64,000 nucleotides of DNA from Actinocatenispora comari. GTDB lineage: Bacteria; Actinomycetota; Actinomycetes; Mycobacteriales; Micromonosporaceae. Of this stretch, positions 52,422-56,296 are shown piece after piece. The stretch is from positions 124,001 to 188,000 of the forward strand of contig NZ_BOPO01000128.1 in assembly GCF_017312725.1 (NCBI RefSeq), given 5' to 3'. Position numbers and translations under genes: made by a program. The notes below the pieces were generated by a model. It did no database searches. It saw only the letters and a list, made by a program, of their open reading frames with translations, and was not told the DNA's origin. How positions within the stretch are numbered: the first letter of the stretch is position 1; every line of letters begins with the position of its first letter.

Positions 52422-53426
52422 TCAGCGCGCGATGACCAGCTCGTACGAGTGCAGCCGGGCGGCGTGGTCCCACGCCTGGGTGGTGACCATCAGCTCCTGC
52501 GCGCCGGTTCGGGCGACCAGCTCGGTCAGCTGCTCCGCCACCTGCTTCGGGTCGCCGACGACGGTGTGCTGGCCACGCTGTGCCATCAGCTGCCGGTCCA
52601 GCGACGTGTACGGGTGGTTCGCCGCCTGCTCCGGGCTGGGCAGCGGGCCGGGCCGACCGGTGCGCAGCTGCAGGAACGACAGCTCCTGCGAACTCGCCAT
52701 CCGCCGCGCCTCGTCCTCGGTGTCGGCGCAGAACACCGACACCCCGAGCATCACGTACGGCTCGGCCAGGTCCGGCGACGGCCGGAACGACGACCGGTAC
52801 AGCTCGACCGCCGGCACCGTGTTGTCGCCGGCGAAGTGGTGCGCGAACGAGAACGGCATGCCGAGCGCGCCGGCCAGCTGCGCCGAGTAGCCGGACGAGC
52901 CGAGCAGCCAGATCGGCGGCCGGTACCCCTTGCCGGGCACCGCGGTGATCGCAGCGTACGGGTGGTCGTCCGGGAACTCGCCGTCCAGGAAGCCGATCAG
53001 CTCACCGAGCTGCCGCGGGAACTCGTCGGCGGCGGGCGACGCGTCGCGCCGCAGCGCGTGCGCGGTGACCTGGTCGGTACCGGGCGCCCGGCCGAGGCCG
53101 AGGTCGATCCGCCCGTCGTGCAGCGCGGACAGCATGCCGAACTGCTCGGCCACCACCAGCGGCGCGTGGTTGGGCAGCATCACGCCGCCGGACCCGACCC
53201 GGATGCGTTCCGTCGCGCTCGCCAGGTGCCCGATCAGCACCGGCGGGGACGAACTCGCAATACCCGGCATGTTGTGGTGCTCGGCCACCCAGTACCGGTG
53301 GTAACCGAGCCGTTCCGCCAGCCGGACCAGCTCGACGCTGTTGCGCAACGCGTCGGCCGGCGTCGATCCGTCCGGTACCGGCGCCAGGTCCAGCACCGAC
53401 AGCTTCACCTCGTCAGACACAGCCAC
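52422..53426 (-). CDS. LLM-class flavin-dependent oxidoreductase
   Basis: A 334-residue enzyme of the luciferase-like monooxygenase family (group with MsnO8/YhbW-type members). [40 protein letters not shown] and [20 protein letters not shown] are typical, and [14 protein letters not shown] follows. [20 protein letters not shown] binds flavin phosphate. It uses FMN or F420; the substrate is unknown. GTG 53426 is the chosen start, with a later GTG at 53420 possible. Confidence 0.9.
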
Positions 53427-53528
53427 GTGACGTGCAACGCGCCGCACCCCCGGCGCGTTCCCGCACCCGGGTGGTCGGTAGGCCGGATCACAGCCGGTCC
53501 GGGGCCGGCGAACACGATCCGCGGCCGG

Positions 53529-54572
53529 TCAGTTCGGTGTGGCGGCCAGGTCGGTGAGGAGGCCGCGGGCGTGGCTCGTCAGGTACCACTCGTGCCGGTA
53601 CGTGTCGGCGAAGCCGTCGCCGCCGACCGCCGCCGGCGCGATCTGGCTGGCGTGCGCGGCCATCGCGGCCCGCTTCGCGGCGAGTTCCGCGTCGGTCGCG
53701 GTCAACCGCACCGGAATCTCGTGCCCGGCCCGGCCGTAGTCGCCGGTGTGCCCGCTCGCCGCGTCGATCAGGTGCGTACCGCCGCGTCGGTGCAGGTGGT
53801 CCCGGTCCACCGTCGCCTCGTACGACACGGCGCCGGTCATCGCCGCCGCCAGCGCGCCGATCCGGTGCACCGCAACGTGATCCGGGTGACCGTAGATGCC
53901 GCGGTCGTCGTAGTGCAGCACCGTGTCGGCCCGTTCCGCGTCGATCACCTCGGCGAGCCGCCGGGCCAGCCGGTCGGTACGGCCACGGGCCAGCGCCCGC
54001 GGATGCCGGGCCGACGGCCAACCGACCATGCCCGAGTCGCGCCGGCCGAGCAGCACCAGCCGGGACACGCCGAGCACCTCGGCGGCGTCCTCCAGCTCGG
54101 CCAGCCGGCGGCGGTGCACGGTCTCGCCGGGGCGCAGCGGGGCGAGCCGTTCACCGAGCTCACCGCCGGTGGCCATGACCAGTATCACCCGGGCGCCACG
54201 GTCGGCGAGCCGGCGCATGGTGGCCGCGGTGAAGATCGCCTCGTCGTCGGGGTGCGCGTGCAGCACGACGACGGCCCGTCCGGCCAGCTCGGGCCCACCG
54301 GCAGAGCCGGGCAGCTCAGGCCCGACGGCCCGTCCGGCCGGCTGGGGCCCACCGGCAGAGCCGGGCGGCCCGGCCGCACCAGTGAAGCCGGACAGGCCGC
54401 GCCCGCCGGCGAAGCAGGGCAGGTCCGGGGCGCCGGCGGAGCCGGACAGCTCGGGCCCGGCAGCGGAGCCGGACGGGCCGGGCCCGCCGGCGAAGCCGGA
54501 CAGGTCGGGCGCGCCGGCGGAGGCGGGCACGCGGGTACGGGCAGGGCGGGAGGCACGCAGGGCCGAAGACAT
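53529..54572 (-). CDS. PIG-L family deacetylase (MshB-like) with low-complexity N terminus
   Basis: A 347-residue protein. The catalytic part starts near residue 105: VVLHAHPDDEAIFTAATM (zinc ligands His, Asp, Asp), and HYDDRGIYGHPDHVAVH gives the C-terminal His motif. These belong to the LmbE/PIG-L family, which includes MshB of mycothiol synthesis. Before it lies about 85 residues of repeated Gly/Pro/Ser (SGSAGAPDL, PGSAGGPQP), not known in MshB. A Cys-rich leader peptide precedes the gene. Other members deacetylate different sugars, so the mycothiol link is inference. Confidence 0.85.
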   Translation of the reverse strand: MSSALRASRPARTRVPASAGAPDLSGFAGGPGPSGSAAGPELSGSAGAPDLPCFAGGRGLSGFTGAAGPPGSAGGPQPAGRAVGPELPGSAGGPELAGRAVVVLHAHPDDEAIFTAATMRRLADRGARVILVMATGGELGERLAPLRPGETVHRRRLAELEDAAEVLGVSRLVLLGRRDSGMVGWPSARHPRALARGRTDRLARRLAEVIDAERADTVLHYDDRGIYGHPDHVAVHRIGALAAAMTGAVSYEATVDRDHLHRRGGTHLIDAASGHTGDYGRAGHEIPVRLTATDAELAAKRAAMAAHASQIAPAAVGGDGFADTYRHEWYLTSHARGLLTDLAATPN

Positions 54573-54628
54573 GGGTACGCTCGCTGACTCGACGGGAGCC
54601 CGGTGACGACCGGGCGGGGCGCGGGAGA

Positions 54629-54703
54629 TCAGCGGCAACAACACGGACACGCGGCGGCGACAATCGGCGCGAAGCCGGTCGCGGTGCAGCGCAGGTCCGT
54701 CAT
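54629..54703 (-). CDS. Cysteine-rich leader peptide upstream of the PIG-L deacetylase
   Basis: A 24-codon frame from ATG 54703 starts MTDLRCTATGFAPI and ends in ACPCCCR before TGA. Four of its last six residues are cysteine, encoded TGT CCG TGT TGT TGC. CAGAAT ends eight bases upstream, so the RNA may start just before it. Its stop lies 56 bases before the deacetylase start. Short ORFs ending in cysteine clusters act as cysteine-responsive attenuators in mycobacteria; a similar role here would link a thiol-related enzyme to cysteine supply. Confidence 0.65.
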   Translation of the reverse strand: MTDLRCTATGFAPIVAAACPCCCR

Positions 54704-54847
54704 GACCGGGGATTCTGCCACGCCCATCGCCCGAACCGCCACGACACCCCGACGATCCGCCCACTGGGCGGGACCGTGCCGGCTCGCCGCCGCAGCGCCC
54801 CGACGCGGCCGGCACCGGGACGTCGGCGGCCGACCAGCCGGCGGCTC

Positions 54848-55068
54848 AGGCGGCAGGTTCGGCCGGTCGAGCGCGCGGGGCATCAGGCGGCAGGTTCGGC
54901 CGGTCGAGCGCGCGGGGCATCAGGCGGCAGGTTCGGCCGGTCGAGCGCGCGGGGCATCAGGCGGCAGGTTCGGCCGGTCGAGCGCGCGGGGCATCAGGCG
55001 GCAGGTTCGGCCGGTCGAGCGCGCGGGGCATCAGGCGGCAGGTTCGGCCGGTCGGGCACGCGGCGGTC
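54848..55068. repeat. 37-bp perfect tandem repeat array (minisatellite)
   Basis: Five identical 37-bp units start at 54848, 54885, 54922, 54959 and 54996, with a sixth, diverging copy at 55033-55068 that reaches the VOC gene stop. The unit begins AGGCGGCAGGTTCGGCCGGT. There are no spacers. The period is not a multiple of three, so it is not a protein repeat. Its uniformity implies recent expansion. Confidence 0.95.
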
Positions 55069-55438
55069 AGGCGGCGGCGAGGATCCAACGGTGGCCGAAG
55101 GGGTCGGCGATGCGCCCCATCCGGCCGTACTCGTGGTCGTTCAGCGGAAAGACCTCGGTGCCGCCGGCGTCGAGTGCCCGGCGCCAGACGGCGTCCACGT
55201 CGGGCAGTCGCAGTACCAGGATCACCGGTACCGCCCCGTCCGGTGCGGGATCGACGTCGTCGGCGTCCTTGACGGCGAACTCGCTGCCGCCGACGGACAG
55301 GTCGGCGTGCACGATGCGGCCGCCTTCGCGGTAGCGGCTCAGCTCCGTCGCGCCGAACGCCTGCCGGTAGTAGTCGATGGCGGCGGCCGCGTCGCGGACC
55401 GCCAGGGTCGGTGCCAGCGTGTTGTCCATGCCTGCCAT
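55067..55438 (-). CDS. VOC family (glyoxalase/bleomycin-resistance-like) protein
   Basis: A 123-residue protein with two babbb modules. TLAVRDAAAAIDYYRQAFGA starts the first, with GGRIVHADLSVGGSEFAV, and the second ends FPLNDHEYGRMGRIADPFGHRW, close to PhnB-like proteins. Metal ligands are partly kept (His in IVHADL, Glu/Asp in the DHEYGR stretch). ATG 55438 or ATG 55429 is the start. Its 3' end abuts the tandem-repeat array. No substrate can be inferred. Confidence 0.88.
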   Translation of the reverse strand: MAGMDNTLAPTLAVRDAAAAIDYYRQAFGATELSRYREGGRIVHADLSVGGSEFAVKDADDVDPAPDGAVPVILVLRLPDVDAVWRRALDAGGTEVFPLNDHEYGRMGRIADPFGHRWILAAA

Positions 55439-55483
55439 GGTGACGCCGCGGCCGGCGCCGGTATTGGAAAAACCTGACCGCGG

Positions 55484-56296
55484 TCAGGCCCGTACCGGCA
55501 GGTGGTTGGGCATCCCCGCCGCGCGCGGCCGGTACCGGGTGGGCGTGACCGAGGCGAACGACCGGAAGTCGTGGATCAGGTGCGACTGGTCGACGTACCC
55601 GTGTTCGGCGGCCAGGCCGGCCCAGTCGACCCGGTCCGCGCCGGCGGTTCCCGCCGCGCAGTCGGCGGCGACCCGCTGGAACCGGCGGATCCGCGCGTAC
55701 AGCTTCGGGGTGAAGCCGGTGTGCACGGCGAACCGGCGGGCCAACCCCCGGTCGGTGCGGCCCAACCGGTCCGCGACGGCCGCCACCGGCAGGCCCCGCT
55801 CCAGCCCCACGGCCGCGGCGCCGACGAGCGGATCCGGCCCCGCGGGCCGGTCCCGCAGCCGGTCCAGCAGCAGCTCGGCCAGCGCCGCCAGCCGCCGGCG
55901 CGGGTTCGGCAGGCCGCGCAGCCGCTCGGCGAGCGTCGCCCCGTCCCGCCCCCACAGCTGGTCCAGCGGCAGATCGCCGGTGCCGTCCGGGGTACCGAAG
56001 AACGGGAAGCCGCCGCCCGGCCGGAAGCAGGCGCCGACGACCTGGCGCTGCTCGGCGGTGTCGATGCACAACGGCGCGGCCGACGCCCCGGACACCGTCG
56101 CCGCGGGCAGCCGGTGCACCCGGGCGAAGCCCGGCCCGTCGTACCAGCGCTGCTCGTCTTCGGCGAGGTTGACGATCAGTTGCTGCCGGCCGGTCGGCAG
56201 GGCGAGTTCGAGCGCAGCGTCGAGCGGCTCGTCGTACCAGTACAGGCTCGTGACGAACGGGGCGAGCGGCGCCGGCGGTGGCATCGTCAGCAGCAT
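55484..56296 (-). CDS. AraC-type helix-turn-helix regulator
   Basis: A 270-residue regulator. The N-terminal half (FVTSLYWYDEPLD, GRQQLIVNLAEDEQRWYDGP, GACFRPGGGFPFFG) fits the DUF6597-like sensor domain found before AraC HTHs. The C-terminal HTH has VAAVADRLGRTDRGLARRFA and GYVDQSHLIHDFRSFASVTP with the usual end PTRYRP. Its start is ATG 56296 or 56284. It is just upstream of the VOC gene on the same strand, 45 bases away, and may control it. Confidence 0.88.
   Translation of the reverse strand: MLLTMPPPAPLAPFVTSLYWYDEPLDAALELALPTGRQQLIVNLAEDEQRWYDGPGFARVHRLPAATVSGASAAPLCIDTAEQRQVVGACFRPGGGFPFFGTPDGTGDLPLDQLWGRDGATLAERLRGLPNPRRRLAALAELLLDRLRDRPAGPDPLVGAAAVGLERGLPVAAVADRLGRTDRGLARRFAVHTGFTPKLYARIRRFQRVAADCAAGTAGADRVDWAGLAAEHGYVDQSHLIHDFRSFASVTPTRYRPRAAGMPNHLPVRA

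Follow-up and report, generated by a model that had tools for sequence, protein, structure and literature searches.

Leaders with runs of Cys codons were predicted before the cys operons of Mycobacterium and Propionibacterium acnes and before cbs of Bifidobacterium longum (Seliverstov 2005, PMC1262725). Cys-rich leaderless upstream ORFs (uORFs) were then seen by ribosome profiling in 2015 (PMC4633059), and Canestrari et al. 2020 (10.1111/mmi.14498) are cited for the finding that polycysteine leaderless small ORFs (sORFs) are cysteine-responsive attenuators in M. smegmatis (PMC13236596, PMC9031893, and PMC9094748). The attenuation exerted by these sORFs is described as translational (PMC13236596).

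We examined a comparable arrangement in a 64,000-nucleotide stretch of the Actinocatenispora comari genome, which as a whole is called the window. As with the mycobacterial polycysteine sORFs, the leader in the window is a short ORF with consecutive Cys codons that lies directly before its target gene on the same strand. The mycobacterial sORFs are leaderless, and a leaderless start is predicted for the window leader from a −10-like hexamer. The systems differ in target and host: polycysteine sORFs have been reported from mycobacteria, whereas the target here is a PIG-L paralog in Actinocatenispora, Jiangellaceae, and other hosts, where a cysteine response is predicted. The predicted cys and cbs leaders of Seliverstov likewise have their Cys-codon runs near the stop, and no terminator was found for them, but their target genes are different. 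The window leader resembles the polycysteine attenuators and is very probably one of them. In the literature searched, whose range ended short of the Canestrari target list, we found no paper joining PIG-L, a leader peptide, and cysteine.

Table 1. Positions of the leader, its proposed control elements, and the PIG-L gene in the window
Feature	Position	Strand	Remarks
Leader ORF MTDLRCTATGFAPIVAAACPCCCR	54703-54629	minus	24 codons, ATG start, TGA stop, by translation
Cys-codon cluster TGT CCG TGT TGT TGC (leader codons 19-23)	54635..54649	minus	Proposed sensor
CGCTGA (final Arg codon and stop of leader)	54629..54634	minus	RNA folding; predicted partner TCAGCG before PIG-L start
−10-like hexamer CAGAAT, within TGGCAGAAT	54712..54717	minus	8 bases before leader ATG, from sequence
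GC-rich spacer hairpin GCCCGGTCGTCACCGGGC	54598..54615	minus	Predicted by RNA folding; enclosed by predicted helix
Element GTCGAGTCAGCGAGC just before PIG-L start	54579..54593	minus	Genus-conserved, partly in L021/L023; presumed sequestered initiation region
PIG-L/LmbE family deacetylase or amidase gene	54572-53529	minus	Third paralog, neither MshB nor Mca

The initial annotation had described a 24-codon ORF with a Cys-rich end directly upstream of a deacetylase ORF, with a 56-base gap between them, and translation of both ORFs bore this out: the spacer from the leader stop to the PIG-L ATG (54572) is 56 bases. Across both strands of the window, two distinct ORFs of 10 to 45 aa carry a Cys cluster near the C terminus (598 starts counted), and only the window leader has a −10-like box before its start. 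The pattern TGYTGYTGYCGNTGA has nine matches in the 7.96-Mb genome of the host, three of which have an in-frame ATG or GTG within 150 bases; apart from the window leader, none of them showed a −10-like box before the start codon when inspected by eye. We found no match of the window leader to a known leader-peptide family. The family leader_Rv2334A (NF042939, Rv2334A family Cys-rich leader peptide) is likewise Cys rich, and when its model was compared with ten of our leaders, the best hit was that of Phytoactinopolyspora (E value, 7.8e-4; 19.5 bits), under the 35-bit cut-off, with no match for the window leader or the eight other leaders tested.

The leader is kept before the orthologous gene in all four Actinocatenispora genomes (the host's own included), both as an open frame and as a Cys cluster. 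Two congeners, whose PIG-L proteins are 94 and 96% identical to that of the window, differ little in the leader region. The fourth, Actinocatenispora rupis (L007, the same locus as L022), has 80% protein identity, a 133-base spacer, and diverged flanks; its leader encodes MTYPRSIVTGPAPIVAAACACCCR, and the locus retains the box GTGGCAGAAT, the leader ATG, and the element GTCGAGTCAG[C/T]GAGC before the PIG-L start. One further close ortholog (L021; 69% identity) turned up among 250 genomes of the family; of the five genomes that matched at E values up to 1e-40, the other four were those of Actinocatenispora itself. Scanning genome contigs gave 13 loci, and of the 14 examined once L021 was added, six had a leader with a C-terminal Cys cluster: L021, L023, L022, L025, L026 (Phytoactinopolyspora alkaliphila), and L027, with L021 and L023 apparently representing a single locus of one metagenome-assembled genome (MAG).

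To extend the sample, we ran a profile search over 394 genomes of the class, which returned 54 matches in 53 genomes; 30 of the 54 loci were retrieved. Leaders were present in 23 of the 24 retrieved loci scoring at least 275 bits and in none of the six scoring 246 bits or less, where the low-scoring L072 has a chance C-x-C ORF that does not end in a cluster. The single exception among the high scorers, L045, has the same sequence context as the Actinokineospora locus L024, directly after a P450-like ORF. A sample of 396 genomes from the phylum contributed two more distant loci, L086 (267 bits) and L087 (228 bits), both without a leader, and 13 genomes from the order of G346 contributed no additional loci.

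Taken over distinct sequences, one PIG-L clade has 32 members, and upstream of 29 of them is a leader ORF of 15 to 29 codons with Cys codons clustered at its end. The hosts of the clade are Actinocatenispora, another genus of Micromonosporaceae, Jiangellaceae, two "Frankiales" MAGs, and one further family. When a tree was built from 55 distinct PIG-L proteins, every one of the 29 rows with a leader fell within one group of 32 (support, 87/94). The same group was retained (support, 96/86) in a second tree, to which L034 (partial), L086, and L087 were added and from which three long-branch rows (L018 to L020) were removed; the three added rows fell outside it. On both trees, the leader label requires 3 changes, compared with a mean of 18.6 after shuffling, although the leader rows are often close kin, 20 of the 29 coming from a single family, f22. 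We take f22 to be Jiangellaceae because its member G473 carries the P. alkaliphila locus.

In the controls, no Cys-cluster ORF preceded the 13 other PIG-L loci examined in the genus (L008 to L020, orthologs being counted per genome) or 13 lower-scoring PIG-L loci (L030 to L034, L068 to L073, L086, and L087). Nor did one precede any of 11 genes for MshB or Mca from six further genomes with leaders, a count that excludes L099, a twelfth region cut off by its contig. The same Cys-cluster criterion returned nothing at L024, L028, L029, or L045, the first three of which are the clade members that lack the cluster. Lack of conservation of the ORF or of its cysteines had been named in advance as grounds for abandoning the idea of a circuit; both are instead conserved across families and tied to this deacetylase clade. 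Of the initial annotation, it is supported that a conserved Cys-rich leader goes with the deacetylase gene and that a link of this gene to cysteine supply is probable.

Two of the clade members without the cluster have features of their own. In Actinokineospora (L024), the ortholog starts about 10 bases past the stop of the P450-like ORF, as judged by eye, and with this ORF just upstream and the leader missing, the gene has seemingly been absorbed into another operon. The ortholog at L029 (AVDCRST_MAG41; L029:1-660) is preceded by a different candidate leaderless leader, MIVDGSYWVGRRAHHFDQRCR, which has a single Cys and no NCBIfam match. Its RR-H-D-CR layout is reminiscent of the NCBI "putative leader peptide" type of Streptomyces.

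The leaders themselves are probably translated from leaderless transcripts. Of the 29 leader loci, 27 have a −10-like hexamer whose second base is A and whose sixth is T, ending 7 to 8 bases upstream of the start codon (in L021, spacing was measured from the first of two ATGs). It occurs in variants such as CAGAAT, CAGACT, and CACAAT, usually preceded by TGG; in L065 and L067, none lies at leaderless distance. At such spacing there is no room for a Shine-Dalgarno sequence or other ribosome-binding site ahead of the start, which is GTG in 21 loci and ATG in 8. In the window, the hexamer position suggests that transcription starts at the leader ATG or within 1 to 2 bases of it. Leaderless transcripts are reported to make up 17% of the total in Streptomyces lividans (PMC8079986). 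The pattern GTGGCANANTN{6,9}RTG has six matches in the host genome, all of which open onto open frames, versus four for the reversed control. One of the six frames is the leader; the other five range in length from 132 codons to 300 or more, and three of these five resemble NUDIX or GNAT proteins in translations read by eye.

To establish what the leader might control, we compared the window protein with models of described PIG-L enzymes. It matches PF02585 at 93 bits (gathering score, 28.2) but scores only 113 bits on the MshB model TIGR03445 and 91 bits on the Mca model TIGR03446, below their equivalog cut-offs of 224.35 and 277.15, respectively. Every one of the nine aligned orthologs hits both models, at E values up to 1e-5. 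Separate genes in the host genome score 342 on the MshB model and 456 on the Mca model, and each of the ten leader-bearing genomes tested encodes two further proteins, one passing the cut-off for MshB and the other that for Mca, whereas the leader-bearing gene in those genomes reaches 107 to 125 bits for MshB and 78 to 90 bits for Mca. MshB-like and Mca-like rows also lie outside the leader-bearing group in the trees. Identity with MshB or Mca is therefore ruled out by the subthreshold scores, the separate clade, and the genuine copies elsewhere, and the step from MshB-like sequence to mycothiol synthesis that was taken in the initial annotation is not supported.

The window protein nevertheless shares the PIG-L family with these enzymes of mycothiol metabolism, which differ from it in forming their own clades, in having cut-offs far above its scores, and in having no Cys leader detected before their genes. 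The catalytic residues described for MshB are His13, Asp15, Asp16, Arg68, Asp95, Tyr142, His144, Asp146, and His147 (PMC4101496). When the ortholog profile was aligned to solved MshB chains, all nine were matched, so that the metal ligands and catalytic residues are the same, and the ligands (MshB His13, Asp16, and His147) and the general base Asp15 are invariant in alignment A2. With these residues intact, the product should be an active enzyme. PIG-L enzymes employ a metal ion, and their relatives include Mca, an amidase that splits mycothiol conjugates (PMC4101496). Since amidases are found among the relatives, a salvage amidase is a reasonable guess for the window paralog, but only a guess.

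We then considered how the leader could act on its target. Within Actinocatenispora and in L021/L023, the CGCTGA formed by the final Arg codon and the stop is predicted to pair with TCAGCG. Among the Jiangellaceae loci, CAGCAGG lies ahead of the PIG-L start and does not vary in the 18 that were aligned (of 20; L059 and L060 were left out). It is exactly complementary to CCTGCTG, which in 16 of the 20 contains the cluster's first Cys codon. The paired bases are nearly invariant there and yield no evidence of covariation. The leader end was predicted to pair with the initiation region more strongly than the mean of spacer shuffles in 28 of the 29 loci, but in only 9 of the 29 was the observed pairing reached by at most 5 of 100 shuffles. 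In a stricter duplex test of 17 representatives, five gave values of <0.05, the window locus gave 0.23, and L025, L065, and L067 showed no signal; the locus's own pairing was better than all cross-clade swaps in only 4 of the 17. Sequestration of the initiation site by the leader end is thus the favoured model, with mixed structural support. Predicted pairing of the Cys and stop codons with the sequence before PIG-L suggests translational attenuation. When the window locus was folded with its 5' part masked, the result suggested that stalling at the cluster's first Cys codon would not reach the core of the helix and that a ribosome would have to sit on the later Cys codons to open it, a point against the model. 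The region 54400-54900 has no intrinsic terminator-like site, which rules out attenuation by an intrinsic terminator, and no Rfam family matched in 53400-55500 at E values up to 1.

The account that we consider likely is that of a leaderless, cysteine-sensing attenuator in which the PIG-L start is sequestered unless a ribosome stalls on the leader, and in which the enzyme is of a salvage type. The transcript would start at the leader ATG, and ribosomes reading the 24-codon leader would meet the run of Cys codons just before the stop. When Cys-tRNA is plentiful, the ribosome would finish and depart, allowing the Cys and stop region to pair with the sequence before PIG-L and hide its start. When Cys-tRNA is scarce, the ribosome would stall on the Cys codons, the region would stay single stranded, and PIG-L would be translated. 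The gene would thus probably be induced when the cell is short of cysteine. The enzyme would most likely be a metal-dependent N-acyl amino-sugar hydrolase that aids cysteine recovery or the reuse of a thiol-linked metabolite, its substrate being speculative.

Cysteine could also be sensed at the level of transcription, through attenuation or Rho polarity: a ribosome on the leader would shield the RNA, and fast reading of the leader would let Rho or pausing terminate transcription in the spacer. Rho was proposed by Seliverstov for the mycobacterial cys leaders without terminators (PMC1262725), the window locus has no intrinsic terminator either, and several spacers appear C rich by eye. We nonetheless think this improbable, as the spacers are short for Rho loading (40 to 73 bases in 28 of the 29 loci and 133 in one) and the conserved element lies directly before the PIG-L start, pointing to control of initiation. 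It is very unlikely that cysteine level is irrelevant and that leader translation is simply required for PIG-L expression through termination-reinitiation coupling. Leaderless uORFs close before genes can deliver ribosomes (PMC4633059), and no AGGAGG is obvious ahead of PIG-L in the window, but coupling leaves unexplained why the clusters in 29 loci consist of Cys codons and adjoin the stop.

The peptide itself might be the functional product, a small Cys-rich protein that binds a metal or takes part in redox chemistry together with PIG-L. Cys-rich tails are capable of binding metals. PIG-L enzymes, for their part, use a metal ion (PMC4101496). Against this highly improbable reading, leader peptides have little in common between families beyond the terminal Cys cluster, and although 20 of the 29 are 23 aa long, two are only 15 aa. 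A variable sequence with a constant length and terminal cluster is expected if the codons matter. The codons are moreover mostly the otherwise rarer TGT, which makes up 85 of the 117 Cys codons in the last nine leader codons but 75 of 418 in 193 flanking genes, a comparison between related rows whose P value is not a true probability. Together, the divergence, the 15-aa leaders, and the TGT bias suggest that the codons or the RNA matter rather than a folded product. That the ORF arose by chance and has no function has next to no probability: short ORFs abound in GC-rich DNA, as the number of starts counted in the window illustrates, but the leader is conserved across several families and absent from the controls.

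The preponderance of TGT in leaders, while TGC dominates the flanking genes, is seen in the Jiangellaceae loci L047 to L064 and in the other leader loci. It could slow decoding or serve RNA pairing.

If the leader does read Cys-tRNA, the PIG-L clade would be expected to work in the cysteine economy, a role that similarity to MshB had not settled. Making more cysteine acceptor when cysteine is scarce would be an odd polarity, and induction at scarcity fits better with recovering cysteine or recycling a thiol-linked amino sugar. As a more specific and tentative proposal, which we regard as unlikely, several actinobacterial families would have a third, unrecognized, thiol-linked PIG-L amidase, gated by Cys-tRNA through the polycysteine leader, that splits mycothiol, one of its conjugates, or some other N-acyl-cysteine store and so sets free cysteine or a fragment containing it. 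If so, the cell would tap its own thiol buffer once cysteine for translation runs out. The regulatory logic is already known, but here it appears to be aimed at an orphan enzyme, which makes the function of the third PIG-L paralog testable. Our data also suggest that polycysteine attenuators reach several actinobacterial families and a gene beyond textbook sulfur assimilation and that polycysteine leaders may serve as a guide to further hidden cysteine-related genes.

We also investigated the surroundings of the gene. Neighborhoods were called at 18 of 21 loci, all but the window slice, L022, and L028, and the neighbors in the window were read separately; the names P450, MurB, adenosine deaminase, NUDIX, and GNAT, for neighbors and for the other box genes, were read from translations. 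In the window, the PIG-L gene is flanked on the same strand by genes for a glyoxalase-family protein and a luciferase-like monooxygenase. The surroundings of ten Jiangellaceae loci are unlike those of the window and largely common to one another, with the next called downstream gene on the opposite strand in nine of the ten. No sulfur gene adjoining the PIG-L gene was recognized among the neighbors in the window and the called loci. As neighbors differ between families while the leader stays, the leader seems to travel with the PIG-L gene and not with a larger operon.

The window locus contains two sets of repeats. A 37-base tandem repeat (54846-55075; 6.2 copies; 97% match) separates the upstream glyoxalase-family gene from the leader promoter and was not seen by eye in the 600 to 700 bases upstream of the catalytic motif in L005, L006, and L007. 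An in-frame 27-base repeat (54280-54528) extends the N terminus of the window PIG-L gene. The catalytic motif lies 374 bases from the leader stop in the window, compared with 159 to 187 bases in the three congeneric orthologs.

Outside the clade, the leader of S. lividans metNIQ is leaderless and ends in CMCRRMCAF; it has been discussed for its Met and Thr content (PMC8079986, Table 4) and might equally sense cysteine.
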